NCBI RefSeq assembly: GCF_000975155.1
Contig: NZ_BBRG01000001.1
Location: 1,190,313-1,254,312, forward strand
Direction: 5' to 3'
From: Demequina globuliformis
GTDB lineage: Bacteria; Actinomycetota; Actinomycetes; Actinomycetales; Demequinaceae
Length of the DNA stretch: 64,000 bases
The position numbers and the translations under genes were made by a program. The notes under the pieces were generated by a model, which saw only the letters and a list, made by a program, of their open reading frames with translations, was not told the origin of the DNA and made no database searches. Shown one piece after another: positions 15,636 to 32,222 of the stretch (positions within the stretch are counted from its first letter, which is position 1; each line of letters starts with the position of its first letter).

Positions 15636-16748
15636 ATGGCGAAGCGCCAGGCGCTCAATCCACCCGTGCTGCCCGGGTACACCTACGTGCGACCCTTGGG
15701 ATCCGGTGGATTCTCCGATGTGTTCCTCTTCCAACAGGACATGCCCCGCCGGCTGGTCGCCGTCAAGGTGCTCCTGAGCCGGATCGAAGACGACGCCTCC
15801 GCCCGCGCGCTCGCCGCCGAGGCCGACGTCATGGCCCAGCTGAGCGCTCACCCCAGCATTCTCACCGTGTACCACGCAGGGGTGTCAGCGGACGGGCGGC
15901 CATTCCTGGTGACGGAGTACTGCCCGGCGTCGCTCACCAACCGGTACCGCCACGAGCAACTGCCGGTCGCTGAGGTGCTGTCCATCGGGATCAAGATTTC
16001 CTCCGCAGTTGAGACGGCCCACCGCGCCGGACTGCTGCACCGCGACATCAAGCCGTCGAACATTTTGCTGACTTCCTTTGGTCACCCCGTGCTGTCCGAC
16101 TTCGGCGTCGCGACGGCCCTGGAGCAGGGCGAGGACGACGTCATCGCGATGTCCCCGCCGTGGAGCGCGCCGGAACTGGTCGACCACAAGACCACGGGCA
16201 CTGTCGCCACAGAGGTGTGGGCGCTCGCGGCGACCGTGTACACGCTGCTCGCCCAGCACAGCCCCTTCGATCGCCCCGGTCAGCGCCGTGATGACGCAGA
16301 GCTGCACAAGCGCATCCTCAAGGCCAAGTACACGCCCATTGACCGCCCTGACGTGCCCGACGCTCTGCAGCGCGCACTGGAAGGCGGCATGCGGAAGTTG
16401 CCGGGCGACCGCTACGAGTCCGCTCAAGCCTTTGGCCACGCGCTGCAGCAGGTGGAGATGGAGATGGGGGTCCAGATCACGGGCCTCGAGATCCCCTCAG
16501 ACGCGTGGTCCCAGACCGCGGCGCCCATGCCCAGCGCGGACGAGCAGCGCCACGGCGTGCGCTCGACGGTGCCCGTCCAGTCCCAGCGACTGCGACGCGA
16601 CAGTGACACGACCGGGAGGGCCGGCACCAGCACCATGCGGGCCCGCAAGGCTGGCAAGGTGGGCCGGAACATTGCGGTCGGAGCGGCCATTGGCGGCGCG
16701 GCCGTGGTGGGAGCCATCGTCGCAGTCGTCCTGACGGTGGGGGCATAA
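15636..16748 (+). CDS. Tail-anchored Hanks-type serine/threonine protein kinase
   Basis: 370 residues. The kinase domain (about 15-275) is complete: glycine loop LGSGGFSDV (21-29), Lys44 in VAVKV, catalytic HRDIKPSNIL with Asp137, and DFG with Asp155. It phosphorylates Ser/Thr of cytoplasmic targets. A linker rich in Ser/Thr/Arg (about 285-340) precedes a single membrane helix that ends at the last residue, so unlike PknB it has no extracellular sensor; the PASTA module is on the next gene product. It is the likely writer for the threonine motifs in the FHA, phosphatase and repeat proteins. Its order with the next genes matches pkb2 of bifidobacteria (recalled from literature). Confidence 0.93.
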   Translation: MAKRQALNPPVLPGYTYVRPLGSGGFSDVFLFQQDMPRRLVAVKVLLSRIEDDASARALAAEADVMAQLSAHPSILTVYHAGVSADGRPFLVTEYCPASLTNRYRHEQLPVAEVLSIGIKISSAVETAHRAGLLHRDIKPSNILLTSFGHPVLSDFGVATALEQGEDDVIAMSPPWSAPELVDHKTTGTVATEVWALAATVYTLLAQHSPFDRPGQRRDDAELHKRILKAKYTPIDRPDVPDALQRALEGGMRKLPGDRYESAQAFGHALQQVEMEMGVQITGLEIPSDAWSQTAAPMPSADEQRHGVRSTVPVQSQRLRRDSDTTGRAGTSTMRARKAGKVGRNIAVGAAIGGAAVVGAIVAVVLTVGA

Positions 16749-16752
16749 CTGC

Positions 16753-19700
16753 ATGAGCGGCGTCGAGGAGGGGCTCGGACGTGCCACGGCAGCACGGTGG
16801 CGCAACGTACGGCGCGCAGGCGTGGGACTGCTGATCGCGGCAGTGGGCGTGGGGGCTTTCCTCGCGCCCGGCTTCGACGAGCGTGAGATCACCCCCGACA
16901 GTCCATCTGTATGGGCGCTCCAGACCTCGGCAGGCCAGCGCATGGCGCGCATCAATACCTCGGTCTCCGAACTCGACACGGTGAAGCAGGTCGCGTCTCC
17001 GACGGACCTTGTCCAGGCTGACGACACCCTGCTGGTGTACTCCAACAACCTCGGCTCGGTGACAACGATGAATGTCGCCCAGCCTCACGACATTGCCGCG
17101 GAGTCGCCTGAGTCCACGGTTGGTACCCCGCTTGGCACGGACGTGGTGCACAGCACGGGCGACTACGTGGTCTACCTGACGGATACCGGCGAGGTTTTCA
17201 CGGGGTCGGTCTCCGCGGGCACGGCCGTGACGCCCGTCCAACTCGACCCCTTTGCCGACGTCGAGGTCGCCGAGGGCGAGGACCGGCCGCAGTTTGTCGC
17301 CAACGCAGTCGCCGTGTCCACCACCGGGCAGGTAGCGGCCTATTCGATCGAACGCCGTGCAGTGCTGACCGGGACCAGCGCCACCGAACTGCGCACGAGC
17401 GCGCTGCCCGAAGGCCCTGACAGCGAGGACATCCAGCTTGCGTGGGTAGGCGAACGCTGGGTGCTGCTTGACGGCGACAGCGGGCTGCTGTGGATTCAGG
17501 ACGTCGAGGAGCCGGTGTCAACGGGCATTGGCGAGGGCGCGGCGCTTCAGAAGTCCGGCGAGGAGGCCAGCACGGTAGCGGTCGCCGACGAGTACGGCCT
17601 TGTCACCGTCACGCTCGAGGAGCCCGCTGGCACGCGCGTGCATGGCTCCACGGAGTCGCTATCACTCGGTGAGGCTGCGCGGCCGCTCCAGGATCCAGCC
17701 TCAGGCGGCATCGTGGCTGCGTGGCTACCCGAGGGCACCGGCCCCGGAACGCTGTGGCGCGACGGTCAGACCCCCGCGGAGTTGAGCTACGGCGGCCAGA
17801 ACCTAGGCGAGCGTGTGGTGCCGACTCTGCGGACCAACGGCTCGCGGTTGATCCTCAACGAAGGACGCTCCGGGTGGGTCTGGGACGTGCGCACGGGCAG
17901 GCTGGTGCCGTCGTCCCAGGCGTGGGACGCCGACGACGACGTCCAGGTGGCCGCTGATGACGAGGAGGTCGCGACGGAAGTCACCGAGCCGCGCCCTCCG
18001 GTCGCCGAGAAGGACTCCTTTGGCGTCAGGGCAGGCCGTCAGATTGTGCTTCCGGTGCTGCTCAACGATCACGACCCCAACAAAGACGTGCTCACCATCG
18101 AACCCGGATCCGTCACGGGCCTGTCGGAGTCATTCGGAACCGTGGCGGTGGCCGACGACGCGCAGGCCATTGTGGTGGACGTCCTCGAGGACGTGACGGG
18201 GACGGCATCGTTCACGTACTCGATCACCGACGGCACCACGGATGACGGGCTGATGTCCGACCCGGCCTCGGTCAGCCTCACCGTGCAGGACTCGTCGGTG
18301 AACTCTCCGCCCGAGTGGTGTGGGGTGGATGACTGTCAGCTCGATTGGCCGGCGCCACAGGTCTCTCCCGGCGGGACCGTCACGGCAGACGTGTTGACGG
18401 GCTGGGTTGACCCCGAGGGCGACCCCATTTACTTGGCAGGGGCCACGACCACCTCAAGCGTGGGCGTCGTTGCGGCCTCGCCTGAGGGACAGCTCGTGTT
18501 CCAACACACGGACGCGTCGTCGACTGAGACGGGAGCCGTCCCGATCTCCGTCACGGTGTCCGACGTGCACGGTGCGAGCGAGACTAAGGACCTTGCGGTC
18601 GCGGTGCTGGGCGAACCGGAACTCCTCGTGAAAGACGCCGCCGTCACCGTGTCAGCGGGCGTCACCGCAGCTATTGACGTCGCCGACCACGTCACGGGCG
18701 CTCGCGGCCCGCTGACCGTGACGGAGGCGACGCTCGGCCCCGACGACGATGCGGTCGTCACGACCTTGCAGGGCGACGTGGGCTTCTCCTTCGTGGCAGA
18801 GGGCCCCGGCAACTACGTCGTGGACTTTGTGGTCAGCGATGGGGTCGCGGAGGCGCGCGGCGCCGCCCGCGTGACCGTGGTCGCGGCGGAGGACGAGCAA
18901 CTCACCACCGTCCCGTTGACTGCCTTTGTGCGGGCGAAGGAGGACGTGACGGTCGACGTCTTGGCGGCAGTGACGAACCCCCGCCGGTCCGTGCTGCTGC
19001 TGTCCGACCTCTCGACCGCACCGGCCGACGGCGCACAACTGTCCGCTGACATCGTGGGCCACTCGGCCCTACGCCTCAGCGGCGACACCAGCGACGGCCA
19101 GCCGGGCGCCTTGGGAACCGTGACGTACACGGTCTCCGATGGATCCGGACGTCCAGAGGGCACCGTGACCGGCGAGGTCACGGTGGTGTTGCTCGGGACC
19201 GATGTGCCATCGACGCCCCTGGCCGTCGATGACGCGATCACGGTGCGGGCGAACACGCAGGCCGACATCAAGGTCCTCGCCAATGACATTGCCCCCGCGG
19301 GCAACGTGATCGCCCTCGACGCGGCCTCGGTGTCGCTGTCCGAGGGTGGCGGGCTCGCTTTCCCTGCCGGGTCGATCATTCGTTACCTCGCGCCCAGTGA
19401 GCCTGGCACGTATGCCATCGACTACGGCGCCTACGTTCTTGGCTACCCGACTCAGGCGGACACCGCGAAGGTGGTGGTGACCGTCACGGCCGACGAGACC
19501 AATCAGCCTCCCGTGCCCAAGCCCATCAGCGGCAGGGTCGCGTCCGGCCAGGAGGTGCGGCTGCCCTTCGACGGCACCGGTGCTGACCCCGACGGCGACG
19601 CGGTCACACTCAAGGGCATTGAGACCCAGCCAGAGTCCGGTGCGGCGCGCGTGTCCTCTGACGGACGTTCGCTCGTCTACACCGCTGACTCTGGTTTCGC

Positions 19701-22700
19701 TGGCCAGGTGTCGTTCACCTTCACTGTCGAGGACGCGCGCGGCGCGACTGCCGTGGCGACCGCATCCGTTGGCGTGTTGGCGGCCGAGCTCGACCCCCGC
19801 CCCGTCACCTACACCGACTATGTGCAGGCGCAAGTGGGAGACGACCGTCGCGTGGTCATCAACCCCACGGCGAACGATCAGGACCTCAGCGGCGGTCTGC
19901 TCCAGCTCCTCAGCGTGACTCCCGACGCCAACCCAGACTCCGACGAGTACGCGCAGCTTGACTCTCATCTCGTGAAGAACGCCGACGGCGAGGTGGCGCT
20001 CGAGGACGGCCGCGTCACCCTCGACGTGGGCACTGAGCCCGGCACGTACGCCTACGTGTACACCGTGGCCAACGACTCCGGCTCGACGTCGATCGGTCGC
20101 ATCATCCTCAAGGCCGTGCGTGAGCCGATCGCCGACGTGCCGATCATTGCCGACACCATCCTGACCTCGGAGAACCGCGACACCTTTACCGGTGGCGTGG
20201 ACGTGATCACCGGCATGGTCTCGTGGGGCGCCGGAGACGTGAACGAGCTCGCTCTCAGCGTGTGGGGCACGCAGGACGACCTTACGGTCAGCGGCTGGCA
20301 GATTGCGGGGCCGCTACCGCAGGCGCCGCGCCTCATTCCTTTCCAGGTCACGGGCGCGAACTTTGCCGGCGAGGACGTGGTCTCCTACGGCTTCCTGCGC
20401 ATCCCTGGAGAGCAAGAGATCCGCGTGTCCCTGCGTGAGAACTTCGCGGCGCCGGAAGTCAACGAGAACGAGTCCGTGTCCTTCGACATGCGTGACCTCA
20501 TCGCGTTGTCAGCGGACACGTCCTTCACGATCCCGGCCGATGCCGTGAGCGCCTCAGGCGCTCGGGCGCAAGCGACGTGCGCACTAGTGAGCGGGACCAC
20601 ACTGCGCTACGACGCGGGCGAAGGTGAGCCCTACACCGACACGTGCCAGGTACCCATCCTGGTGGAAGGCGCAGACGAGCCCGAGTTCCTTCCCGTCCCC
20701 ATCATCGTGATTCCTGAGATTGCACAGCCAGTGCTCACGGGAGCGGCGTTGGAGATTTCTCCCGGCGACTCGGCCTCCTTTGACCTGGGTGGCATGGTGA
20801 CCTGGCCAGACGGTGCCGACGGCCGTCCGGTCGAGATCGGCATGACGTACGTGGGCGAACAGTTCACCGTCAGCCGCTCGGGCGACTCGCTGACGATCGT
20901 GGCCTCGGACACGGCGGTCCCGGGCGCGGTCGACACCGTCACCGTGACCCTGACCTCTGAGGCGGAGGTGGCGCCGGTGACCCTGACGCTCGAGGTGGGT
21001 CCTGCGCCATCGACTCTGCCCAAGGGCGGCTCCACGTCACAGCAGTGCTCGCAAAGCGACGGCAACTCGTGCACTATCTCGGTCATCGGGGCATCTGGCG
21101 AGGTCAACCCGTTCACCACGACACCCCTTGTTCTCGACTCTGTGAGCTCCGACGGCACGTGTAAGGGTGTGACGTTCTCGGTGGCCTCCGACACCGCCGT
21201 GCGTGCCTCCTGGACGGGGGACACCGCGGGCGCCGTGTGCAACGCGAGCTTTGTCGTGGTCGACGCTCAGGGGCGCAAGAGTTCCGGTGACCGCCTGGGC
21301 CAGGTCAGCCTTGACCTGCAGGGATTCCCCGGGAGCCCGTCGGCCCTGTCCCAAACCGCGTACGGAGACGGAACTGTCACCCTCGCGGTCGACCCAGGTC
21401 CTGCATCGGCCTCCTACCCTGGCATCACCGGCTTCACCGTGACCGCCGGTGGCAGCGAGGTCGCCACCTGCACCGCCAAGGGTGCGTGCTCCCAGATCAC
21501 GGGCCTCGCCAATGGCGAAAAGACCCAGTACACCGTGGTCGCGAACAACTCCGTGGGCAACTCCAAGGGGTCGGCTAGCACTACCGCGTGGTCATATGCG
21601 CCCCCTCAGCGGCCATCGCTGGTGAGCTGGAAGCCGTCCAAGGCGGGGGATGCCGGCCTCAAGGCGGACCTCGTCATCCGCGTGCAGGACTCGTCCACGC
21701 GGCAACTGTCGATCACCTCGCCTACGGGCGAGCAGCGCGTTGTCACCGTGTCCGGGCGCGGGAACCAGACGGTGTCCAACTACCTCGTGGGCTCAAACGC
21801 GGCGACCGACATCACGATCACCCCCGTGACGGGCCACGAGATTCCACCCGTGGGCGGCGGGAGCACGCAAGGCGAGGCCCTGTCCGCCCGCGTGAACGGC
21901 GTGGGTGCTCCACAGATCTCCAACCCCGACTGGACGTCCAGCCAGGACGGCCGCCAGGTGACGTTCACGGTTGACGTCGCGTCTGCGGGCGCGGGATCCA
22001 CCACGTGGCTGGGCGTCAGTTCCGGTGGACGCTGCGAGCCGACCGTGCAGGCCAACGGCGGGCGTGGCGCCGTGCCGATTACATTCAGCCCCAACGAGCA
22101 GCCGCGCGACTACACGATCTGCGCGCAGAGCCGCTACGACTCGACCGCCTACGGTGACGCGACCACCACCGTCACGGGTGTCTTCACCTACGTGGCGCCG
22201 GGTAGCCCGCCGGAGAAGCGATCCGGATACTCATTCTTCGACCGCTGTGGCACCAATGGAGCCTTGTCCTGCGAAGCGGGCTACAACAACCCTCATTACC
22301 GCTCCGTCGACCGGAACTTCACGGTGCGCTACGGCACCAACCCCAACGACACCACGGAAAACACCGACGTCAGGGTGGGCGAGATTCCGTCGATCAACGC
22401 GTACCACTGCATCAGTTTTGGCGGCGCGCCTGTGCAGTGTGCCGACAACGGTGTGAAGGTCGCGACGGACTCCACGGTGAAGTACCGCGCGGGCGTCCAG
22501 TACCAGCGGTGCTGGGCCGACGGCGGCGGGCGCGACACGGAGTTCCGCGTCGAGGGCAACTCGAGTGACTACACCGTCACCGAAGAGTGGTTCCGCGACC
22601 AGTGGGGCACGCGTCCGGCCGAAGACGGCAAGCCGTGGACCTTCAACTATGCCCGTATCAAGGTGGCGTTCTCCGGAAATCTCCAGGGCGTGCGCGAGTG

Positions 22701-23100
22701 GACATCGGGTCTGCGCGACTGCGACAACTCCGCCACAGAGCAGGTCGAGGTCCCGGGGGTGATGGGCCTCAGCCGCAACGACGCAGAACGCGCGATCCGC
22801 AATGCGAACCTGACGCCCGTCGTTGTCACGCGTGACACCAAGGTCGAGAGCGAGGCGGGCACGGTGCTCAGCCAAAGCCCAGGACCCGGGAACCAGGTGG
22901 ACATCAACTCCAACGTCACCATCGAGATCGGCAACTATGTGCCCGATCCCGAGCCCTCGCCGGATCCCACCGCGGCCGCCGCTGGCATTGCACCGCAGCC
23001 AGGAGATCCGGGCGCAGACCTGCCCGCACACACGGCCTACCTCGCAGCAGCGCTGCGCACGACTCAGACCAGGCCATCAACCCGCCCCATCAATCGCTAG
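16753..23100 (+). CDS. Giant exported Ig-like/FN3 protein with C-terminal PASTA domain
   Basis: 2115 residues. A short basic N-terminus and one membrane helix (about 20-40) anchor it with a long extracellular part. Residues about 50-400 look like a beta-propeller. About 410-1450 contain repeated Ig/cadherin-like units with VLLNDHDPNKD- or DPDGD-type motifs. About 1500-1860 include FN3-like domains. A PASTA domain (VPGVMGLSRNDAERAIRNAN) occupies about 1996-2060, before a Pro-rich tail. PASTA domains bind peptidoglycan fragments or lipid II. It starts 4 nt after the kinase stop, which suggests it is the kinase's sensory partner (inference). It corresponds in position to fn3 of the bifidobacterial cluster. 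Confidence 0.88.
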   Translation: MSGVEEGLGRATAARWRNVRRAGVGLLIAAVGVGAFLAPGFDEREITPDSPSVWALQTSAGQRMARINTSVSELDTVKQVASPTDLVQADDTLLVYSNNLGSVTTMNVAQPHDIAAESPESTVGTPLGTDVVHSTGDYVVYLTDTGEVFTGSVSAGTAVTPVQLDPFADVEVAEGEDRPQFVANAVAVSTTGQVAAYSIERRAVLTGTSATELRTSALPEGPDSEDIQLAWVGERWVLLDGDSGLLWIQDVEEPVSTGIGEGAALQKSGEEASTVAVADEYGLVTVTLEEPAGTRVHGSTESLSLGEAARPLQDPASGGIVAAWLPEGTGPGTLWRDGQTPAELSYGGQNLGERVVPTLRTNGSRLILNEGRSGWVWDVRTGRLVPSSQAWDADDDVQVAADDEEVATEVTEPRPPVAEKDSFGVRAGRQIVLPVLLNDHDPNKDVLTIEPGSVTGLSESFGTVAVADDAQAIVVDVLEDVTGTASFTYSITDGTTDDGLMSDPASVSLTVQDSSVNSPPEWCGVDDCQLDWPAPQVSPGGTVTADVLTGWVDPEGDPIYLAGATTTSSVGVVAASPEGQLVFQHTDASSTETGAVPISVTVSDVHGASETKDLAVAVLGEPELLVKDAAVTVSAGVTAAIDVADHVTGARGPLTVTEATLGPDDDAVVTTLQGDVGFSFVAEGPGNYVVDFVVSDGVAEARGAARVTVVAAEDEQLTTVPLTAFVRAKEDVTVDVLAAVTNPRRSVLLLSDLSTAPADGAQLSADIVGHSALRLSGDTSDGQPGALGTVTYTVSDGSGRPEGTVTGEVTVVLLGTDVPSTPLAVDDAITVRANTQADIKVLANDIAPAGNVIALDAASVSLSEGGGLAFPAGSIIRYLAPSEPGTYAIDYGAYVLGYPTQADTAKVVVTVTADETNQPPVPKPISGRVASGQEVRLPFDGTGADPDGDAVTLKGIETQPESGAARVSSDGRSLVYTADSGFAGQVSFTFTVEDARGATAVATASVGVLAAELDPRPVTYTDYVQAQVGDDRRVVINPTANDQDLSGGLLQLLSVTPDANPDSDEYAQLDSHLVKNADGEVALEDGRVTLDVGTEPGTYAYVYTVANDSGSTSIGRIILKAVREPIADVPIIADTILTSENRDTFTGGVDVITGMVSWGAGDVNELALSVWGTQDDLTVSGWQIAGPLPQAPRLIPFQVTGANFAGEDVVSYGFLRIPGEQEIRVSLRENFAAPEVNENESVSFDMRDLIALSADTSFTIPADAVSASGARAQATCALVSGTTLRYDAGEGEPYTDTCQVPILVEGADEPEFLPVPIIVIPEIAQPVLTGAALEISPGDSASFDLGGMVTWPDGADGRPVEIGMTYVGEQFTVSRSGDSLTIVASDTAVPGAVDTVTVTLTSEAEVAPVTLTLEVGPAPSTLPKGGSTSQQCSQSDGNSCTISVIGASGEVNPFTTTPLVLDSVSSDGTCKGVTFSVASDTAVRASWTGDTAGAVCNASFVVVDAQGRKSSGDRLGQVSLDLQGFPGSPSALSQTAYGDGTVTLAVDPGPASASYPGITGFTVTAGGSEVATCTAKGACSQITGLANGEKTQYTVVANNSVGNSKGSASTTAWSYAPPQRPSLVSWKPSKAGDAGLKADLVIRVQDSSTRQLSITSPTGEQRVVTVSGRGNQTVSNYLVGSNAATDITITPVTGHEIPPVGGGSTQGEALSARVNGVGAPQISNPDWTSSQDGRQVTFTVDVASAGAGSTTWLGVSSGGRCEPTVQANGGRGAVPITFSPNEQPRDYTICAQSRYDSTAYGDATTTVTGVFTYVAPGSPPEKRSGYSFFDRCGTNGALSCEAGYNNPHYRSVDRNFTVRYGTNPNDTTENTDVRVGEIPSINAYHCISFGGAPVQCADNGVKVATDSTVKYRAGVQYQRCWADGGGRDTEFRVEGNSSDYTVTEEWFRDQWGTRPAEDGKPWTFNYARIKVAFSGNLQGVREWTSGLRDCDNSATEQVEVPGVMGLSRNDAERAIRNANLTPVVVTRDTKVESEAGTVLSQSPGPGNQVDINSNVTIEIGNYVPDPEPSPDPTAAAAGIAPQPGDPGADLPAHTAYLAAALRTTQTRPSTRPINR

Positions 23101-23130
23101 CAGCCGCGAGAAACACGAGGAACTCACGCA

Positions 23131-24096
23131 ATGACAGTCACCGACGAGCAGGCGAGTTGGTTCGCCTCCACGTTCACTGCGCTGACCGACAATGTGGAGC
23201 GCGCCGTGCTCGGCAAGCGCCACGTGGTCGAACTTGCCTTCACGGCCATGGTGTCGGAGGGGCACCTGCTGCTTGAGGACGTTCCCGGCACCGGCAAGAC
23301 CTCGTTGGCGCGTGCGCTCGCCCAGACGGTCAAGGGTTCCTCCAGCCGCATTCAGTTCACCCCGGACCTACTGCCAGGCGACGTCACGGGCATCACAGTC
23401 TTTGACCAGCGCCAGGGCACCTTCGAGTTCCACGCCGGACCCATCTTCGCGAACGTGGTGCTCGCTGACGAGATCAACCGCGCCTCCCCCAAGACGCAGT
23501 CCGCTCTCCTGGAGGTCATGGAAGAGGGCTCGGTCACCGTGGACGGGGTGACGCGCGAGGCCGGGTCGCCATTCATGGTGGTGGCCACGCAGAACCCGGT
23601 TGAGCAGGCGGGAACCTACTCGCTGCCTGAGGCACAGCTCGATCGCTTCATGATGCGCACCTCGCTCGGCTACCCCGACCACGGCGCCACCTTGCAGATC
23701 CTCGACGCGGGCCGCCCCGTCAAGGTCACGGTGCCGCAGATCGCGGAACTGCAGACCATTGGCGCCATGACGGGCCTGTCGCGTGAGGTGCACACCAGCC
23801 CGCTGATTCTGGACTACATCGCACGCATCGTGGACGCGACGCGCTCCGCCACCCAGGTGCGATTGGGAGTGTCCGTGCGTGGCGCGATCTCGCTGTCACG
23901 GACGGCCCGCACCTGGGCGCTCGCCCACGGCCGCACCTATGTCACGCCGGACGATGTCAAGACGCTGGCCGAGCCAGTGCTCGCACACCGTCTCATCTTG
24001 GACCCCGAGGCCGAGTTCGATGGCGTCACTGCTACCGCGGTGATTGGCCAGATCCTGCTCGACACGCCCCCGCCCTCGCAGCAGGACCTCAAGTAA
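23131..24096 (+). CDS. MoxR-family AAA+ ATPase
   Basis: 321 residues. Walker A is DVPGTGKTSLA (about 50-60) and Walker B is VVLADEINRASPKTQ (about 110-124), with the MoxR-specific sensor stretch VVATQNPVEQAGTYSLPEAQ. MoxR proteins act as chaperone-like ATPases together with DUF58 and transglutaminase-like proteins, which follow directly (4 nt and then a 4-nt overlap). The substrate is unknown; folding or release of the giant exported protein or other membrane partners is a reasonable inference. Confidence 0.94.
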   Translation: MTVTDEQASWFASTFTALTDNVERAVLGKRHVVELAFTAMVSEGHLLLEDVPGTGKTSLARALAQTVKGSSSRIQFTPDLLPGDVTGITVFDQRQGTFEFHAGPIFANVVLADEINRASPKTQSALLEVMEEGSVTVDGVTREAGSPFMVVATQNPVEQAGTYSLPEAQLDRFMMRTSLGYPDHGATLQILDAGRPVKVTVPQIAELQTIGAMTGLSREVHTSPLILDYIARIVDATRSATQVRLGVSVRGAISLSRTARTWALAHGRTYVTPDDVKTLAEPVLAHRLILDPEAEFDGVTATAVIGQILLDTPPPSQQDLK

Positions 24097-24099
24097 GCC

Positions 24100-25491
24100 A
24101 TGACCCAGGCCCCACCCCGCCGCCGCGGCGACACGCGCACCCACACGAGGACCTCGCGGACTCGTACGGGCTACACGCATGCCACGACGCGCACGCACAC
24201 GCAGTACGCGGAGGAATCGCGCGGGCGTTGGGTGAGCCTGGGACTTTGGGGCTTGCGCACCGGCCGGTCGGTGGCGGACTGGTCCCGCCGGGCATGGCGA
24301 ACCGTCGCCTCCGTCACCACACCTGCCGGGTGGGCCGTGATCGTGTGGACCATCGCTGGTCTGACCGTTGGCCTGGCGTTGGGATGGGGCGAGTTCCTCA
24401 TTGGCGCATTGGTGGGCCTGGTGCTGCTGCTGATCGCCTTGCCCTTCCTGCTAGGCAAGGAGCCCTACGAGGTCGACTTCCGGCTGCTTCACGACGCCGT
24501 GGTGGCGGGACACGACGCCGAGGCGGAGATTGTGGTGCGCAACCGCCACTCGCGGCTGGCGCTACCTGGCCAGGTTGACGTGCCCGTGGGGGAAGGCCTG
24601 ATCGACTTCCACGTGCCGTTGTTGCGCAAGGGCAGTGAGCATCACGAGCCACTGGTGATCCCAGGAGCGCGGCGCGGCATTATCGACGTGGGGCCGGCGA
24701 CCACGATCCGCGCTGATCCGCTGAGGCTCGTCCAGCGCACCTTCCATTGGGCGGACGTCCAGACGTTGTACATCCACCCGGTCACGATCGCGATCCCCAG
24801 TACCTCCATGGGCTTCATCCGCGACCTTGAGGGCCGCGCCACGCGCTCGCTCACCAACGAGGACATTTCTTTCCACGCCGTGCGCGAGTATGCGCGCGGC
24901 GACGCCCAGCGCCAGATCCACTGGAAGTCGACGGCGAAGACCGGCACGCTCATGGTGCGCCAGTTCGAGGAGACGCGTCGGTCCACGTTGTCGATCATCC
25001 TCGACCTCGACGAGGTCAACTACGCGAACGAGAGCGAGTTCGAGATGGCGGTCTCTGCCGCCGGATCGCTGGGCGTGCGTGCCGTCCGCGACGGTCGCGA
25101 CGTCCAGGTCGTGATCTCCGGCGAGGTGCCCGAGTTTGCGAAGGCCTCCGTGCGCTCGCTTGCGCAGTTGAATGTGACGACGCCGCGTCGCCTCCTCGAC
25201 GACCTCTCGGGTGTCGAGGCGGCGTCGACCGTGGTTCCGCTGCCGACGCTCACTCGCATGCTGGTCGAGGTCACGAATGAGACGTCGTTGGCCTTCCTGG
25301 TCACCGGCTCGCGAGCCGAACTCAGCGAGCTCAGTGCGGCGGCCTTGGCCTTCCCCATCGACGTGGCGGTTGCCGCGGTGGTGTGTGACCCCGAGTCTGA
25401 GCCGGCGATGCACGCGGTGGGTCGCACGCGCATCTTGAGCCTGGGCATTCTGGATGACCTGCGCCAGTTGCTCGCGAAGGGGGCGCGATGA
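24100..25491 (+). CDS. DUF58 membrane protein
   Basis: 463 residues. Two membrane helices (about 76-95 and 100-125) follow a cytoplasmic N-terminus rich in Thr, Arg and His (RTHTRTSRTRTGYTHATTRT). The DUF58 signature HAVREYARGDAQRQIHWKS is at about 264-282, and a von Willebrand-like core follows. DUF58 proteins pair with MoxR ATPases. The unusual Thr/Arg N-terminus may be a kinase substrate (inference). The stop overlaps the next start by 4 nt. Confidence 0.92.
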   Translation: MTQAPPRRRGDTRTHTRTSRTRTGYTHATTRTHTQYAEESRGRWVSLGLWGLRTGRSVADWSRRAWRTVASVTTPAGWAVIVWTIAGLTVGLALGWGEFLIGALVGLVLLLIALPFLLGKEPYEVDFRLLHDAVVAGHDAEAEIVVRNRHSRLALPGQVDVPVGEGLIDFHVPLLRKGSEHHEPLVIPGARRGIIDVGPATTIRADPLRLVQRTFHWADVQTLYIHPVTIAIPSTSMGFIRDLEGRATRSLTNEDISFHAVREYARGDAQRQIHWKSTAKTGTLMVRQFEETRRSTLSIILDLDEVNYANESEFEMAVSAAGSLGVRAVRDGRDVQVVISGEVPEFAKASVRSLAQLNVTTPRRLLDDLSGVEAASTVVPLPTLTRMLVEVTNETSLAFLVTGSRAELSELSAAALAFPIDVAVAAVVCDPESEPAMHAVGRTRILSLGILDDLRQLLAKGAR

Positions 25492-28055
25492 GCCGCCGAC
25501 GCCTCTCGCGGCACACGCCCGCCATGGGCCTGATGCCGACGCTCATCAACGCTCTATTCATGATGGCGGTCGCCGCCGTCGCTGCGTGGACGCTCTACCC
25601 GGTCTATGAGTCAGTTCGCTACCTTATGGTGATGCCGCTGGCGATCGTGGGCGGCGCCGCCATTGCCGTGATCGCGTCACGCGCGGGTTGGAGCGGCGTC
25701 ACCACGGCCCTTGTCGCCGCGGGGCTGTACGTCGTGGGCGGGCTCACCTTGGCTGTCCCCGGCGCCACCAGTGGGGTGGACTCCGCCGTGGGCGCCGCCT
25801 TTGAGCTCGTACGCGGGCCCATCCTGGGCTGGAAGGACATTGCCACCCTGCCCCTGCCGCTGGGCGAGTACCGCGCCACGCTGGTGCCGGTCTACGCGCT
25901 GTTCTTGCTGTGTTCGGTGTGGGCGACGTGGCTCGCCGTCCGGTCAGAACGCCGGTGGGGTGCAGCAGCGGTCGTGGTGACGGGCCTACAGGTAGCGGCC
26001 ATCGCTCTTGGCCCGGCTACCCGTGCGGAGGCCTACGAATGGGCGCCCTTCGGCGTCTACATGAGTCGCGAGTTCCTCGTGGGCCTCGCCGCCTTCTTGA
26101 TCCTCCTCGCCTGGTTCGCGTGGCGCGCCTCGTGGGCCCGGCGCACGGCTATTGCCCAGGCCCAGGGAACGGCATCGGCCCGCCTCGCCAGCGCCCCCAA
26201 GGGCCGGACCCTCGCCGCCGTGGGCGCGGTCGCCGCCATGCTCGTCGTCGCCACTGTCGTGGGACTTCTCGCAGCTGGCCCCATCGCCGCGACCACCCCA
26301 CGCGACGTTGCTCGAAGTGCGATCGACCCTGAACTCACCGTTGACGCCGCCGTCACGCCGCTCGCGGACTTCCGCTCGAATTTCACCGATGCGGCGTATG
26401 ACACGGTGCTGTTCTCGGTAGCGGTCGCGCAAGGGGCGCCCGACCGCGTGCGCGTGGCCACGCTGCCGTACTTCGACGGTGAGAGTTTCACGGCATCGGC
26501 CCCGCAAGGCGCCGCTCCCGATCGCTACCAGCGGGTGCCCTCGACCTTGGAGGCTGTGCACGGTGGGGACGCGGTGTCCGCCGAGGTATCGATCGCAGCA
26601 GGAGGGGGCATTTGGGTGCCCATGACGGGCGAACTCGAATCCATCACGTTCTCCGGCGCGCGTCGCAGCCAACTCGTCGACTCCTTCTACTACCAACGCG
26701 AGGCGGCATCGGGCGTCATGGCCCTCGACGGCGGCCTCACCACAGGCGACTCGTACACCGTCAGCGCGTACTACGCGGCTCCCAGCTCGCTCGCCGACCT
26801 CGGAGACCCGACCGGCAATGGCCAGGTAGCGTCGTCGCTGATCCCTGACTCGTTGCGCGACTGGGTCGCCAACCAGGCGGTCACGAACGATGGCGCAGGA
26901 CTCGCCGACCTCGTGCAACGGTTGCGTGAGCGTGGCTACCTCAGCCACAGCCTGCTCGAGGATGAGGCGGCGGCGACGTGGATGGAGGACCTGGGTGCCT
27001 ACACCTTCGTTGGCTCCGCAGCAGGGCATTCGCGGGACCGCATTGACCGCATGTTCATCTCTCTCAACGAACGTGAGGCGGAGGTAGGCCCCACCGACGA
27101 CAACTCGGAGCTCGTCGCGGCGCCAGGCGACGACGAGCAGTTCGCGACGGCCGTCGCGCTGATTGCGTCCGACATGGGGTACGCGTCCCGAGTCGTGCTC
27201 GGCGCGCGGCTCGATTCGACCGACGACTCGGGCTTCGCCGCGCCGCCATGCGAGGCCGGCGAATGCCGCGGCAAGAATATGACGGCCTGGGTTGAGGTGC
27301 AGGCTGCGGATGGCCGTTGGATTCCCGTGGACGTGACGCCGCAGCACGGCAACGTCGTGGCGCCGGACATCAGCACGCAGACCGATCCCGAATACGCCTC
27401 GCCGCTCGATCCCAAGCACGCTGAGGCGATCGTGCCGCCCTCCACGCAACGCGGCACGTCGGACACCTCCGACCCAGTGGAGATCGAGGAGCCCGGCGAG
27501 GAGTCGTGGATTCTCCCAGTGCTGCGCATCGCCGGAGCTGGGCTGCTGGGATTCGCCATTGTGCTCGGCCCCATCCTGGCCATCCTGATCTGGAAGTCGA
27601 TCCGCAGGGGCCGCAGGCGCAAGGGGACGCCGGCCGCTGCCGTCTACGGTGGCTGGGACGAGTATCTCGACACCGCCGTCGACGCGGGCCTGGCGCCCAT
27701 GCCACTGGCCACGCGCAGCGAGGTCGCCACCACCTACGCCACTGCCAATGGCGCGGCGCTCGCGACGTTGACCGACCGCGTGACCTTCTCCGGACGCCCG
27801 TCGTCGCCAGAGGAAGCCGACCTGTTCTGGGCGATGATGGAGGAAGACCGCAAGCAGTGGCTCGCCTCGCGCAGTTGGTGGTCGCGAATCAAGATGCGCC
27901 TGTCACTGCGGTCGCTGTGGCACGCCACGACGGAACAGGCCGATGCTCCCGGCGCGCCGAGCGAGAGCGACCGAGTGCAGTGGCGAAGCGACCACACTGG
28001 TGCCACGGGCACGCGCAGAGGGCGCAGCCGCACGCGCAACAGCAAGAAGAGGTAA
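25488..28055 (+). CDS. TgpA-like transglutaminase-fold membrane protein, catalytic residues lost
   Basis: 855 residues. About six membrane helices cover 1-265, an extracellular domain follows to about 680, a further helix lies near 690-715, and a basic cytoplasmic tail ends the protein. The transglutaminase-core region is present (GDDEQFATAVALIASDMGYA, then MTAWVEV, then VDVTP). In active family members the first block reads G-x-C and the second HAWVE. Here Asp549 replaces the nucleophile Cys and Thr599 replaces His, while the final Asp remains. It is therefore probably a non-enzymatic scaffold. It corresponds in position to tgm of the bifidobacterial cluster. Confidence 0.85.
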   Translation: MSRRRLSRHTPAMGLMPTLINALFMMAVAAVAAWTLYPVYESVRYLMVMPLAIVGGAAIAVIASRAGWSGVTTALVAAGLYVVGGLTLAVPGATSGVDSAVGAAFELVRGPILGWKDIATLPLPLGEYRATLVPVYALFLLCSVWATWLAVRSERRWGAAAVVVTGLQVAAIALGPATRAEAYEWAPFGVYMSREFLVGLAAFLILLAWFAWRASWARRTAIAQAQGTASARLASAPKGRTLAAVGAVAAMLVVATVVGLLAAGPIAATTPRDVARSAIDPELTVDAAVTPLADFRSNFTDAAYDTVLFSVAVAQGAPDRVRVATLPYFDGESFTASAPQGAAPDRYQRVPSTLEAVHGGDAVSAEVSIAAGGGIWVPMTGELESITFSGARRSQLVDSFYYQREAASGVMALDGGLTTGDSYTVSAYYAAPSSLADLGDPTGNGQVASSLIPDSLRDWVANQAVTNDGAGLADLVQRLRERGYLSHSLLEDEAAATWMEDLGAYTFVGSAAGHSRDRIDRMFISLNEREAEVGPTDDNSELVAAPGDDEQFATAVALIASDMGYASRVVLGARLDSTDDSGFAAPPCEAGECRGKNMTAWVEVQAADGRWIPVDVTPQHGNVVAPDISTQTDPEYASPLDPKHAEAIVPPSTQRGTSDTSDPVEIEEPGEESWILPVLRIAGAGLLGFAIVLGPILAILIWKSIRRGRRRKGTPAAAVYGGWDEYLDTAVDAGLAPMPLATRSEVATTYATANGAALATLTDRVTFSGRPSSPEEADLFWAMMEEDRKQWLASRSWWSRIKMRLSLRSLWHATTEQADAPGAPSESDRVQWRSDHTGATGTRRGRSRTRNSKKR

Positions 28056-28060
28056 GACCC

Positions 28061-30538
28061 ATGGGAATGCTGGTCGTGATCCCGCTCCTCGTGGGCGGAG
28101 TGATCAACCTGATCTGGATGGGCTTTGCCCTGGGTGCGGTGCTGCGCAAAGTGGGGCAATCGCCGGCCCCCGCCTTTGTCCCGGTGTGGCGGTGGGTGGC
28201 AGCTGCGCAGGCGGCGCGCCTGTCTCCCATTCCCGTGGCGATCGCTCGCGGTGTCGCATTCGTCGGCGCTTGTGTCGCGTTCGCGGCGCTCATCCTCGAA
28301 CAGGCGTTGGCCGATGTCGACATCAGCGTGGTGCGAGGGTTGCTCGTCGCTGGCGTGATCGTGTGTGTGCTGGGCTCGTTGGTGGGTTGGGTGATGTGGA
28401 TTTATGGCGCCGGAACCATCGAGTTGCGCCTCCAGGCTCCGTCGCTACTGACATGGGTGGCGGCTCTGTCGCCCGTCATTTGGGCGTCCATTGTGGGGTG
28501 GGGTCCCTACGGCCCGGCCGGGCGCACCTCGGAGGCCGCGCGGGCCGCCGCCCATAGCCCCCATGCCGCTGGGCACGTGTCAGACGCGGCGTCGCCCCCG
28601 GCAGAGGTGAGCACGGGCGTCCCGGCAGCCGCGCCACCCACACCGTCCCCTGAGCCGCCGGTCCTTGCCGCAGCGTACCCCGGCGCCCCCGACGCCCCCG
28701 ACGCCCCCGCGCCGCCGGACGTCGCGTCCATGGCTCCGGCGGCATCGGCCCTGTCCACAGACCCACCCGTCAGCGCCCCGAGCGCCGCAGAGCCTGAGCC
28801 CCAGGTGCCACCCACCGCCGCTGCAGATGCGACACCTGTCATTGAGGAGGCAGCTGTGCCGAACGCCACCGACGACCACTCTCAAGGCGGTCACCCCACC
28901 CCCACGGGCGACCCGTTCGCGGACGCTCGCCCGGAGGCTGCCGCGCCGCAGCAGTGGGCGTGGGGCGCCGTGCGCGAGGTCGAGCCGGACGAGGAAACGA
29001 TCATCGCGCGCCCCGCAGGGACGGCGGAAGCTGACGCTCAGGGCGGCTCCGCCGCTGATGCTCCGCCGCCGCCGACTGGCGCCCCCGTGTCTGGACCGGG
29101 CGTTCCGCCGCCACCGACTGGCGCCCCCGTGTCTGGACCCGGCGTTCCGCCGCCGCCGACTGGCGCCCCCATGTCTGGACCGGGTGTTCCGCCGCCGCCG
29201 ACTGGCGCCCCCGTGTCTGGACCCGGTGTTCCGCCGCCCCCGGACTCGGTAGCGGCGTCTGCCCCTGGCCCGAGCCCTGCTCCGGCGGCCCCGGTGGCCT
29301 CGCCTCCGCCAGCGGCCCCATCGGCTCCCGGCGAACAGCAAGAACAGCAGGCGTCGGCGAGTGCCGGCGTGATCGGCTTGCCGCCCGGGTGGGCGGCGAC
29401 AGCTCAGCCGGAGTCGACCACGCCCGCGGCCCCGCGTGTCGACAGTGCTCCCGACCTCCCCGCGCCGGCACCATCCCCCAGCTCAGTCGACGCGCCCGCG
29501 GTGCTGCCATCCGCACCATCGGCTCCCGTGGCGCGCGAGCCGCACAGTGCAGACTCGGAGCACGAGAACGTGTCGCCGTACCTGTCGCAGCCGCCTACGG
29601 GAGCCGTGCCCGTCGTCGATGCGACTCGGGATGCGTCGGCAGTGTCGCGTTCAGCGCCAGCGGTGTCGCCGTACGGCGCCCCTGAGCCGGAGTCTGCTCC
29701 TGAGCCGGACTGGCTCGTCAAGGCGCGGGCCGATGCCGCAGCCGCCCAGGCGGCCGCCTCGCCGGTCGAGGAGGACGAGCAGCCGAGCACGTCAGTCGCT
29801 GCGGATCACTCTGGCGCTGGGATGAAACCCGTCGAGCACGACGCGCCCGCGACGCCTTCCGCCAGTGCGGCTCCTGACGCGACTGCGGCTCCTGACGCGA
29901 CTGCCGCTCCTGGGGCGCCTGACGCGCCTGCGGTGTCTGAACTGCCGGCGGCACCCGCCGCTGGTGCCGCACCCGTCACCGGTGCCGCACCCGTCACCGG
30001 TGCCGCACCCGTCACCGGTGCCGTGCCCGGGGTAGGTGTGAGCGCTGCGCCCGAGGTCGTATCGGCCCGGAGCGCGGAGCCCGCGCCCTACGTCGAAAGT
30101 CTGCCGACCGCTCCGGTGCCGACGCGTTCGGCCCTCCCGCCCGCGCCAGCCGCGACGCCGTCTGGAATGCCCGAGGAGGACGACGACCACACGGTGATCG
30201 CTTCCCGTCGCCGCGTGAGTGCGCAGCTTGTCGTCGACGGCGGCCAGTCGTATGACCTCGCAGGCACGACCATCACGGTCGGGCGCCTCAGTGCCGCGAG
30301 CGACGGAATCCTGGGGATCACTGACCCCACCAAGACCATGTCGAAAAAACACGCCACCTTGCAGCTCGTCGACGGTGCGTGGCACGTGCTGGACCTGGGC
30401 TCGACCAACGGCACCTACCTACGCAACGAGGCGGGGCGCGAGACCGAGGTCAGCCCGGGCGTGCTCGCGCGCATCGAAGGCGTGCTGATTCTCGGCGACC
30501 TTGAGGCGCGCATCGTAATGAGCGAGGGCGGCCAGTGA
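28061..30538 (+). CDS. Membrane-anchored FHA-domain protein with Pro/Ala-rich linker
   Basis: 825 residues. Four hydrophobic helices (about 1-150) are followed by a very long Pro/Ala-rich linker with four 14-residue tandem repeats (335-390) and AAPVTG repeats (about 635-652). The C-terminal FHA domain (about 719-825) shows the usual VGR, SKKHATLQ and LGSTNGTYL motifs that bind phosphothreonine. Just before it lies DDDHTVIASRRR (Thr711), and another acidic EETIIAR motif contains Thr313; both resemble the repeats of the last gene in the cluster. By analogy with GarA/OdhI, phosphorylation of Thr711 could engage the adjacent FHA domain. The ATG at 28061 has a Shine-Dalgarno (AGAGG), 5 nt after the previous stop. 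Confidence 0.88.
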   Translation: MGMLVVIPLLVGGVINLIWMGFALGAVLRKVGQSPAPAFVPVWRWVAAAQAARLSPIPVAIARGVAFVGACVAFAALILEQALADVDISVVRGLLVAGVIVCVLGSLVGWVMWIYGAGTIELRLQAPSLLTWVAALSPVIWASIVGWGPYGPAGRTSEAARAAAHSPHAAGHVSDAASPPAEVSTGVPAAAPPTPSPEPPVLAAAYPGAPDAPDAPAPPDVASMAPAASALSTDPPVSAPSAAEPEPQVPPTAAADATPVIEEAAVPNATDDHSQGGHPTPTGDPFADARPEAAAPQQWAWGAVREVEPDEETIIARPAGTAEADAQGGSAADAPPPPTGAPVSGPGVPPPPTGAPVSGPGVPPPPTGAPMSGPGVPPPPTGAPVSGPGVPPPPDSVAASAPGPSPAPAAPVASPPPAAPSAPGEQQEQQASASAGVIGLPPGWAATAQPESTTPAAPRVDSAPDLPAPAPSPSSVDAPAVLPSAPSAPVAREPHSADSEHENVSPYLSQPPTGAVPVVDATRDASAVSRSAPAVSPYGAPEPESAPEPDWLVKARADAAAAQAAASPVEEDEQPSTSVAADHSGAGMKPVEHDAPATPSASAAPDATAAPDATAAPGAPDAPAVSELPAAPAAGAAPVTGAAPVTGAAPVTGAVPGVGVSAAPEVVSARSAEPAPYVESLPTAPVPTRSALPPAPAATPSGMPEEDDDHTVIASRRRVSAQLVVDGGQSYDLAGTTITVGRLSAASDGILGITDPTKTMSKKHATLQLVDGAWHVLDLGSTNGTYLRNEAGRETEVSPGVLARIEGVLILGDLEARIVMSEGGQ
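29063..29230 (+). repeat. Four tandem 42-bp coding repeats
   Basis: Four near-identical 42-bp units encode PPPPTGAPVSGPGV (Met for Val in the third). A partial fifth unit follows. They extend the flexible linker between the membrane part and the FHA domain and are likely to vary in copy number between strains. Confidence 0.9.
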
Positions 30539-31377
30539 CGGTCGGCTCGCATTGGGCCACGGGCGCGGGCGACACCAATCAAGGGCCGCGCGCCCGCAAC
30601 GAAGACTCGTATCTGTCCCGCGGCAACGTGCACATCGTCGCCGACGGTATGGGTGGGCACCACGCCGGAGCCGCCGCGAGTGCGGCCGTTGTTGAGACCT
30701 TCGCGGCGCTCGCTGACCTCCCCGTCGTGACGCCACCGGAGGTCGCTGCCGCGGTGGTGCAGGCACAACGGGCAGTCCTTGAGGTGTCGCTGTCAGTGGG
30801 AGGAGAGTCCGGCACCACCGTGACCGGCGCCGTTGCCGTGGAGCACGACGGCGGACCGTGGTGGATGATCCTTAACGTCGGCGACTCGCGGACGTACTTG
30901 GTGGACGGCGACGTGGTTCATCAGGTGACGCGCGACCACTCGCACGTCCAGGACCTGGTTGATGCGGGACGGATCACTGCTGAGGAAGCCGAGCGACACC
31001 CGGACCGGAACATCGTGACCCGAGCCATAGGCGACGGACTCCCAGAGTTCGATGCCTGGCTCGTTCCCGTGATGCCTGGCATGAGGCTCGTGGTGGCGAG
31101 CGACGGCTTGACGAAGGTGGTGTCAGATGCGCGCATTGGAGTCACCGCAGGTAGCGCTGAGGAGCCGCAGACGGCCGCGTCGGCGCTCGTTAACGAAGCA
31201 CTGGCCCTTGGCACGGGCGACAACGTCACTGTCGTGGTGGCAGACGTTCTCGACGCCGTGACCCCTCCCGGACTGAGCGTGGCGCCCTGGAGGCTGTGGG
31301 GCGAGCAGTGGGAGCCAGCGGACGACGACCTTGAGGACGACACGACCCAGACCTCGCGCCGGAGGGCACGAGTATGA
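30535..31377 (+). CDS. PP2C-type serine/threonine phosphatase
   Basis: 280 residues. All PP2C metal-binding motifs are present: NQGPRARNEDSYL (about 18-30), VADGMGGHHAG (about 37-47), NVGDSRTYLV, VASDGLTKVVSD and GDNVTVVVADV. It removes phosphate from Ser/Thr and should oppose the cluster kinase. It has no membrane helix. Its C-terminus, EDDTTQTSRRRARV, resembles the acidic-T-R-R motif of the neighbouring proteins (Thr270/271), so it may dock to the FHA protein when phosphorylated (inference). The GTG start overlaps the FHA stop (GTGA), and its stop overlaps the next ATG (ATGA). Confidence 0.94.
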   Translation: MTVGSHWATGAGDTNQGPRARNEDSYLSRGNVHIVADGMGGHHAGAAASAAVVETFAALADLPVVTPPEVAAAVVQAQRAVLEVSLSVGGESGTTVTGAVAVEHDGGPWWMILNVGDSRTYLVDGDVVHQVTRDHSHVQDLVDAGRITAEEAERHPDRNIVTRAIGDGLPEFDAWLVPVMPGMRLVVASDGLTKVVSDARIGVTAGSAEEPQTAASALVNEALALGTGDNVTVVVADVLDAVTPPGLSVAPWRLWGEQWEPADDDLEDDTTQTSRRRARV

Positions 31378-32222
31378 GCGACGAGCGCGATTCGGCCGCA
31401 GACCACACCGACGATCCCACAGTGGTGTCGTCCCGCCGGGCGCCCTCGGCTCCGAAGGGGGACTTCGACGATGACTCGACGGTGATGTCCTCGCGTCGCT
31501 CGGCAGCTGCCGCCAAGGACGAGGATGCCGACGATGACTCGACGGTGCTGTCATCGCGCCGAGTATCTGGCGGTGCGGGCGGCTCCGGTCTGCCGGCTGA
31601 AGAGGATGATTCCACGGTGTTGTCTTCCCGCCGAGCGGCGAGCGGCGCCGGTATGGCCGGTCCGGCAGACGACGACGATGACTCGACGGTGCTGTCATCG
31701 CGCCGAGTGTCCGGCGGTGCGGAGGCGTCCGAACAGCCAGCCGATGACGACGACGATGACTCGACGATCCTGTCCTCCCGCCGTGGGGCCCTGCCCCCGG
31801 CGTCCCCATCCGCGCCCGAACCGCCCGGCATTCCGGACGCCACGCCGACCGCGCCCGCGCACCCACGTGTGACCCGCTCGCGTGCGCCACGCTCAGCGCT
31901 CCCGCCCGGGTACTCGCTGCCCGGCGAAGCAGCCGTGCGGCCCGGCAGCGTCGAGGCCGGCCAAAAAGAGCAGGCATACCAGCCGCGACTCGCGCCCGAA
32001 GTCGCGAACGCGGTGCCGGAGGAGCTCCGGTCGCCGCACCCTCACGGTGCGACGGCGGGTCAAAGCGCCTACGAGCAGGTGGTGCCGCCGCAGGAGGCAG
32101 CGCGCCGGCGAGCAGCGAAGCGTCGCAAGCGCCTCATCACGGTGTCGGTCGTCGCTGCGGTGGCAGCGGCTGTGCTCACGGCCGCCGTGGTGCTCGCCGT
32201 CACGCTCGCGCTCGGCGGGTAG
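31374..32222 (+). CDS. Tail-anchored protein with six acidic S-T-V-L-S-S-R-R motifs
   Basis: 282 residues, no family recognised. The N-terminal half holds six copies of an acidic run followed by (S/P)-T-(V/I)-(V/M/L)-S-S-R-R. The threonines are 16, 36, 57, 81, 105 and 131, spaced 20-26 residues apart by Gly/Ala/Ser linkers. A Pro-rich middle follows, then a basic stretch RRRAAKRRKR and one membrane helix ending at the C-terminus, so the repeats face the cytoplasm. The order kinase-FHA-phosphatase-repeat protein suggests a multivalent phosphothreonine docking platform. No catalytic domain is visible. Confidence 0.85.
   Translation: MSDERDSAADHTDDPTVVSSRRAPSAPKGDFDDDSTVMSSRRSAAAAKDEDADDDSTVLSSRRVSGGAGGSGLPAEEDDSTVLSSRRAASGAGMAGPADDDDDSTVLSSRRVSGGAEASEQPADDDDDDSTILSSRRGALPPASPSAPEPPGIPDATPTAPAHPRVTRSRAPRSALPPGYSLPGEAAVRPGSVEAGQKEQAYQPRLAPEVANAVPEELRSPHPHGATAGQSAYEQVVPPQEAARRRAAKRRKRLITVSVVAAVAAAVLTAAVVLAVTLALGG
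31410..31784 (+). repeat. Six-copy threonine-motif array
   Basis: Direct coding repeats with the core D-D-S-T-V-L-S-S-R-R. The core codons are well conserved (for example GATGACTCGACGGTGCTGTC), whereas the linkers differ in length and sequence. This suggests duplication followed by selection on the core. Confidence 0.9.

Follow-up and report, generated by a model that had tools for sequence, protein, structure and literature searches.

Which purpose is served by a short threonine motif that recurs in three consecutive genes, one of which encodes a phosphothreonine reader and another a phosphatase? The 64,000 nucleotides of Demequina globuliformis DNA analysed here (the window; contig NZ_BBRG01000001.1, positions 1,190,313 to 1,254,312 of the forward strand; genome size 2.62 Mb) contain a PFNA-type cluster of eight genes on the + strand (15636 to 32222), encoding in this order a kinase, an Ig/PASTA protein, a MoxR ATPase, a DUF58 protein, a transglutaminase, an FHA protein, a PP2C phosphatase and a tail-anchored repeat protein, which is called the array in the following. 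The motif was found in the last three of them, and an earlier note on this DNA had proposed that the kinase marks its threonines, the FHA domain reads them and the phosphatase erases them, all at the membrane. We consider it probable that the motif serves this cluster as a dedicated phosphothreonine tag, which would be written by the kinase and read by the FHA domain; the copy next to the domain would be the domain's own ligand and the array a multivalent competitor or tether at the membrane.

The threonine motif in the window

All positions given in the following are those of the window, and all features are on the + strand. The FHA protein (28061-30538; FHA, E 9.8e-08) consists of a hydrophobic N-terminal part, a long low-complexity linker and a C-terminal FHA domain (Pfam span 30275-30439). 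The motif EDDDHTVIASRRR (30176-30214), with Thr711 encoded by 30191-30193, lies approximately 28 residues before the domain; the earlier note had placed it immediately before the domain. The array protein (31374-32222), whose start overlaps the PP2C stop, contains the core T(V/I)xSSRR six times, again as claimed: at Thr16 (31410-31439), Thr36 (31470-31499), Thr57 (31533-31562), Thr81 (31605-31634), Thr105 (31677-31706) and Thr131 (31755-31784). It ends with a hydrophobic anchor and a basic stretch before it (32133-32219, judged by eye from the protein sequence). The copy that had been assigned to the C-terminal tail of the PP2C (30535-31377; PF00481, E 1.1e-11) is there as EDDTTQTSRRR (Thr270/271; 31333-31365), but it is divergent: in the register that fits best, +2 is Gln, and the strict pattern does not match it.

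Chance does not reproduce this distribution. The core expression matched six times in the array protein and once in the FHA protein, with a shuffle mean of 0.0 (5000 shuffles per protein, three proteins), and a looser form matched once each in the FHA protein and the PP2C, with shuffle probabilities of 0.004 and 0.006, respectively. A strict DNA pattern, searched for in the whole genome, gave seven matches, which are the six array copies and the FHA site, and none when the pattern was reversed. None of the five further FHA domains detected in the genome has the motif; one of these five, which looks like GarA, has a Thr segment of its own. Pairwise comparison of the array copies of the window (15 pairs of 10 codons) revealed 64 synonymous versus 19 non-synonymous differences, and since the copies differ mostly synonymously, selection on the protein is indicated and not a fresh duplication.

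The earlier note had also counted Thr313 of the FHA protein (28997-28999) as a weak member of the set. The residue is indeed present, in DEETIIAR, but it is not conserved: the part ahead of the juxta-domain site contains a total of 2 such motifs in 97 FHA open reading frames (shuffles 0.45), one of which is Thr313 itself. We judged it incidental and rejected it from the motif set.

Array proteins in related loci

Related loci with a DUF58 gene numbered 153; 130 were left after removal of near-copies and 128 of these had a transglutaminase gene. The sample includes 80 named loci; these are the top 80 out of 577 matches and lean to close relatives. Array genes, defined by at least two motif copies and a C-terminal hydrophobic stretch, were found in 78 of the 128 loci, with at least three copies in 59 and up to 14 copies in one gene, and the strict form was present 256 times in the 78 genes, compared to a shuffle mean of 2.2. 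In L173-L180, neither FHA nor array was found by the locus-scan method. When the T-slot was defined by its surroundings it was occupied by Thr in 236 of 261 cases, by Ala in 7, Glu in 5, Val in 3 and Ser in 2, a count that is biased towards Thr and to that extent speaks less strongly for a threonine tag, since array genes had been selected for at least two T-motifs. The overall residue shares in arrays are 6.5% Thr and 6.2% Ser, and the selection would hardly account for a hundredfold preference of Thr over Ser.

Loss of the motif in homologous clusters, which the earlier note had set as the outcome that would speak against it, was not seen. Other Demequina clusters as well as those of Microbacterium, Cryobacterium and Homoserinimonas retain both the FHA site and the array, and the FHA-side Thr, spelled differently, persists in further clusters of the order. 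The motif core is real, but its wording had to be changed: the consensus across relatives is [DE][DE]xT-x-(VIL)-(S/A/V)-x-R and not acidic-x-T-(V/I)-x-(S/A)-S-R-R.

Arrays are closely linked to their neighbours. A possible start at most 20 bases from the stop of the preceding gene is present in 72 of 75 stand-alone arrays located downstream of an FHA or PP2C gene, and in 54 of these 72 start and stop are offset by one base as in ATGA. The linkers are of low complexity and vary between loci, and no Pfam or NCBIfam family was found in the array proteins scanned (five, or the four without a kinase part). Fusions were observed as well, to PP2C in L075 and to a kinase-like domain clearly in L110 and weakly in L132. 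The L110 gene (15931-17439 of that locus) is a second kinase-like gene that encodes eight motif copies of the type DDHTVLSTRR and, at the C-terminus, an anchor; the catalytic motifs seem to be degenerate (HGR, GFD), and its product is perhaps a pseudokinase scaffold.

The threonine next to the FHA domain

The sample contained 102 FHA open reading frames, from which L070, L073, L084 and L119 were excluded because an S-K/R-x-H core was not recognised. A Thr with at least two preceding acids, located 45-58 residues before the S-K-x-H core, was found in 97 of the remaining 98 proteins, and a hydrophobic residue (V, I, L or M) follows at +2 in 95 of the 98. Control windows of equal length further upstream gave 0 to 2 of 96-97 proteins. 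The sole miss, L048, has the Thr of GETRMQ slightly further out. The residues of the FHA pocket (G-R, S..H and N-G) are invariant in an alignment of 47 rows; these rows had been picked for having the Thr, so that the invariance of the Thr itself in that alignment is no separate evidence. The best PDB matches to the fold of the domain, whose core block is predicted with a pLDDT of 86-96, were GarA with PknB, OdhI, and MDC1 bound to its own pThr4 peptide.

With a conserved Thr motif ahead of an FHA domain whose pocket is intact, the protein is arranged like GarA, OdhI and DgcB; the tails of these three, which have Glu at -2 and hydrophobic residues at +2/+3, are ligands of the FHA domain of the same protein (PMC6733907). 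The site described here shares with them the position before the domain, the acid at -2 and the hydrophobic residue at +2. Unlike there, +3 is Ala, Val, Ser or Thr among the relatives, and the available part of that account mentions no array protein that shares the motif (PMC6733907). Assignment of the FHA protein to a named type was rejected in three cases, with 23.6 bits versus a curated cut-off of 200 for the OdhI equivalog, 38.1 versus 125 for the FhaB equivalog and 15.9 versus 120.25 for the TagH family FHA protein of the type VI threonine pathway.

FHA site and array are spelled jointly

The position +3 to the phosphothreonine is described as having general weight in FHA recognition (PMC5549992). 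With respect to Val/Ile at +3, the FHA site and the majority of the array copies agree in 66 of 72 loci (18 + 48). The corresponding Fisher value of 2.9e-11 is inflated, because only few independent changes underlie it (four for the FHA site and six for the array by parsimony on the DUF58 tree); these few changes, as well as the six loci that disagree (4 and 2), reduce the weight of the agreement for a common tag. Over four positions, the match between FHA site and array was 1.42 within the same locus versus 0.82 after permutation, and versus 1.30 when permutation was restricted to seven clades, which had been delimited manually from the order of the DUF58 tree (P 0.0004). The spellings of FHA site and array go together.

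Phosphatase and kinase

From 73 PP2C proteins, L073, L075 and L079 were excluded from the tail count. Among the remaining 70 tails, 60 show the looser form of the motif, in which an acid and a Thr are combined with Arg at one of the positions +4 to +6, compared to 6% of internal windows. The PP2C of the window contains NED, DGMGG, SDG and GDN, which we take to be the usual acidic metal-site motifs. A kinase is indeed encoded in the same cluster (15636-16748; PF00069, E 7.9e-40), as the earlier note had stated; VAVK, HRDIKPSN and DFG are present and the protein has a C-terminal hydrophobic anchor. Between the kinase domain and this anchor, a segment RSTVPVxSxR is conserved in the window and in many Demequina loci. 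It was considered as a further motif copy and rejected, since the acids are lacking.

Proposed mechanism and alternatives

In the mechanism that we propose, a membrane kinase, most likely that of the cluster, would phosphorylate the Thr of the motif. The FHA domain would bind the tag thus formed, because its pocket is intact and the tag resembles known ligands. The juxta-domain copy would serve the FHA domain of its own protein as ligand; binding in cis, as in GarA, OdhI and DgcB, would be the simplest form, or the copy may link molecules. The membrane-anchored array would offer many competing copies. With kinase activity, the FHA protein could then leave its self-bound state and enter a multivalent complex at the membrane, and the PP2C, where present, may dock to the same reader via its C-terminal tag and reset the tags. 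The network of writing, reading and erasing put forward in the earlier note is compatible with the preference for Thr over Ser, the intact pocket, the catalytic motifs of kinase and PP2C and the hydrophobic segments on the kinase, FHA and array proteins (judged directly from the sequence, without a topology program), but it loses Thr313 and has to be weighed against the observations listed next. A wider reading would make the module a so far undescribed class of bacterial signalling system, in which a dedicated, co-evolving phosphothreonine tag on a tail-anchored array with up to 14 sites is read by an FHA protein plugged with the same tag, so that the array would control the MoxR/DUF58/transglutaminase surface machine across the order, either by a multisite threshold or as a condensate switch at the membrane. 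This reading is speculative, and we regard it as rather unlikely in this full form.

Several observations weigh against a tag that is written, read and erased within the cluster. The kinase of the window carries no motif copy. AlphaFold2 leaves the unphosphorylated motif disordered and undocked (pLDDT 52-54 versus 86-96 for the core blocks of the FHA domain; the phosphate is outside the model). By the rule used, an array is lacking in 33 of the 110 loci whose downstream DNA is long enough. Among the 329 array copies found by a loose rule, a few of which match by chance (L075, L132, L152 and L157, with other sequence in the frame, are examples), +3 is mostly Ser (155), followed by Val (91), and is less hydrophobic than in GarA, OdhI and DgcB. 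The copy of the PP2C is weaker than those of FHA protein and array. Kinase, FHA protein, PP2C and array stand together in the window, but a nearby PP2C was not found in 19 of 72 loci with FHA and array (the named ones are mostly Microbacterium), so that the trio, which had been described as self-contained, is not always so. Further, a slightly different, looser pattern gave 90 matches in 41 genomes of the genus, of which 50 are within the fetched cluster loci (approximately 0.8 Mb in all) and 40 are outside, where some may fall in clusters that were not fetched; the reversed pattern gave 14. Confinement of the motif to the cluster is therefore strict in this genome and looser across the genus.

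The FHA-side motif might act between molecules only. In that case phosphorylated FHA proteins would form dimers or chains, as MDC1 or TIFA do, and the array would co-assemble with them into a membrane cluster, without autoinhibition. The best fold matches include MDC1 bound to its own pThr4 peptide, array genes have up to 14 copies, and fibre and head-to-head modes are given for FHA tails (PMC6733907), but the spacing of approximately 28 residues between motif and domain permits binding in cis too. Cis and trans are equally compatible with the data here, and we give the reading restricted to trans a minor chance. Somewhat less probable is that the motif is only a substrate or docking consensus of the kinase, several cluster proteins being substrates, and that the FHA domain binds something else. 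Sites dependent on PknA are enriched in acids at -1 and -3 to -6, Pro at +2, Leu/Val at +3 and Lys/Arg at +4 (PMC7164672), and the acid before the Thr, the hydrophobic +3 and the later basic residue of the motif resemble them, a likeness that speaks for the preferred tag as well. The register of the motif, with the acid at -2 and Arg at +5, differs from the Lys/Arg at +4 of these sites, which also counts against a tag written by a kinase of this kind (PMC7164672). A mere substrate rule does not require that 97 of 98 FHA proteins have the site at a fixed place, 45-58 residues ahead of the S-K-x-H core, the concerted spelling of the FHA site and the array copies exceeds what a generic rule would give, and the other FHA domains of the genome are without the motif.

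Two further explanations do without phosphorylation. The strong charge pattern DDD...RR would suit an acidic-to-basic linear motif for another partner, such as the MoxR ATPase or the transglutaminase complex, but 236 Thr versus 2 Ser next to a phosphothreonine reader, a kinase and a phosphatase would be left unexplained, and we consider this very improbable. Functionless drift of low-complexity repeats, to which the low-complexity linkers differing between loci would be congenial, can practically be dismissed, since the motif is retained across genera, most codon changes from copy to copy are synonymous and strict matches in this genome occur nowhere outside the cluster. The tag that would be written by the kinase and read by the FHA domain is the reading we prefer.

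Relation to known systems

The PFNA cluster of Bifidobacterium comprises pkb2, fn3, aaa-atp, duf58, tgm, prpC, a hypothetical gene and fha, and a role towards host cytokines has been proposed for it (PMC8430577). The cluster of the window has the same order of kinase, surface protein, MoxR, DUF58 and transglutaminase, followed likewise by a PP2C, a gene of unknown function and an FHA gene, but the last three genes are reordered and FN3 is replaced by Ig/PASTA domains (PMC8430577). The available part of that account names no threonine motif, array or FHA ligand (PMC8430577). In nine loci of a family that we presume to be Bifidobacteriaceae, four FHA genes were found, and all four have WD(G/S)TVLS before the domain; three of the four are on the strand opposite to the cluster, and no FHA gene was found in the other five loci.

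Kinase, phosphatase, FHA protein and a membrane protein with an FHA-bound phosphothreonine are also combined in the type VI pathway of PpkA, PppA, Fha and TssL, where Fha binds the peptide LPpTVVE of TssL (PMC3953482). The difference is that TssL has a single site and no repeated tag, and that the pathway belongs to an unrelated machine of Agrobacterium (PMC3953482). Several phosphothreonine sites on one protein are read redundantly by the FHA domain of SLMAP in the case of MST2, and SLMAP recruits a phosphatase (PMC5663475). Multiple sites, one FHA reader and a phosphatase make MST2-SLMAP-STRIPAK a likeness in the way of working only, since this system is human, has its sites on the kinase itself and uses PP2A and not PP2C (PMC5663475). 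MoxR conflict systems were considered and rejected; FHA and PP2C occur there in other gene settings (PMC7159879).

Signalling by FHA proteins, kinases and phosphatases is already known; the variant described here adds a repeat-tag protein. No published description of the motif or of the repeat-tag protein was found in the titles and abstract beginnings of the open-licence literature, outside of which most subscription journals lie; the earlier note had likewise known of no description of the motif set. The shared tag links the FHA protein, the PP2C and the unnamed last gene, for which no earlier link was found in the literature covered, and it suggests a role for an array gene that belongs to no Pfam or NCBIfam family. 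Besides, the motif copies supply peptides for direct tests of FHA specificity and its evolution.

Gene setting and minor observations

Upstream of the three motif genes, the kinase is followed by a large Ig-repeat protein (16753-23100) with an N-terminal hydrophobic segment and PASTA near the C-terminus, a MoxR-type AAA ATPase (23131-24096; AAA_3, E 7.2e-62), a DUF58 protein (24100-25491; PF01882, E 2.6e-11) and a transglutaminase-like membrane protein (25488-28055; PF01841, E 2e-07). The core of a PFNA cluster, that is kinase, Ig-like surface protein, MoxR, DUF58 and transglutaminase, is therefore present in the expected order. The optional genes prpC, hypothetical and fha are matched by PP2C, array and FHA, in the order FHA-PP2C-array. 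The surface protein gave no fn3 match, but matches to Big_9 and PASTA. A DUF58 match at E 1e-70 or better was obtained in 231 of 396 sampled genomes of the order to which the window belongs; such a match alone is no proof of a whole cluster, but the core looks widespread in the order.

Classification of the kinase as a PASTA kinase (PknB/Stk1) was rejected, with 135.6 bits versus 450 for the PknB_PASTA model and PASTA being located on the separate Ig protein. The presence of the PASTA domain on the Ig-repeat protein and not on the kinase resembles a PASTA kinase split in two. Finally, clusters in which the kinase gene is the last one (L048, L050, L051, L052, L058 and L181) contain a second FHA protein, and several kinase-last clusters have PP2C tails near DTVPR/DTLPR as well as DATVxR-like sites (e.g. 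DATVLR) in the kinase. These sites may constitute a parallel tag, in which Arg is at +3.

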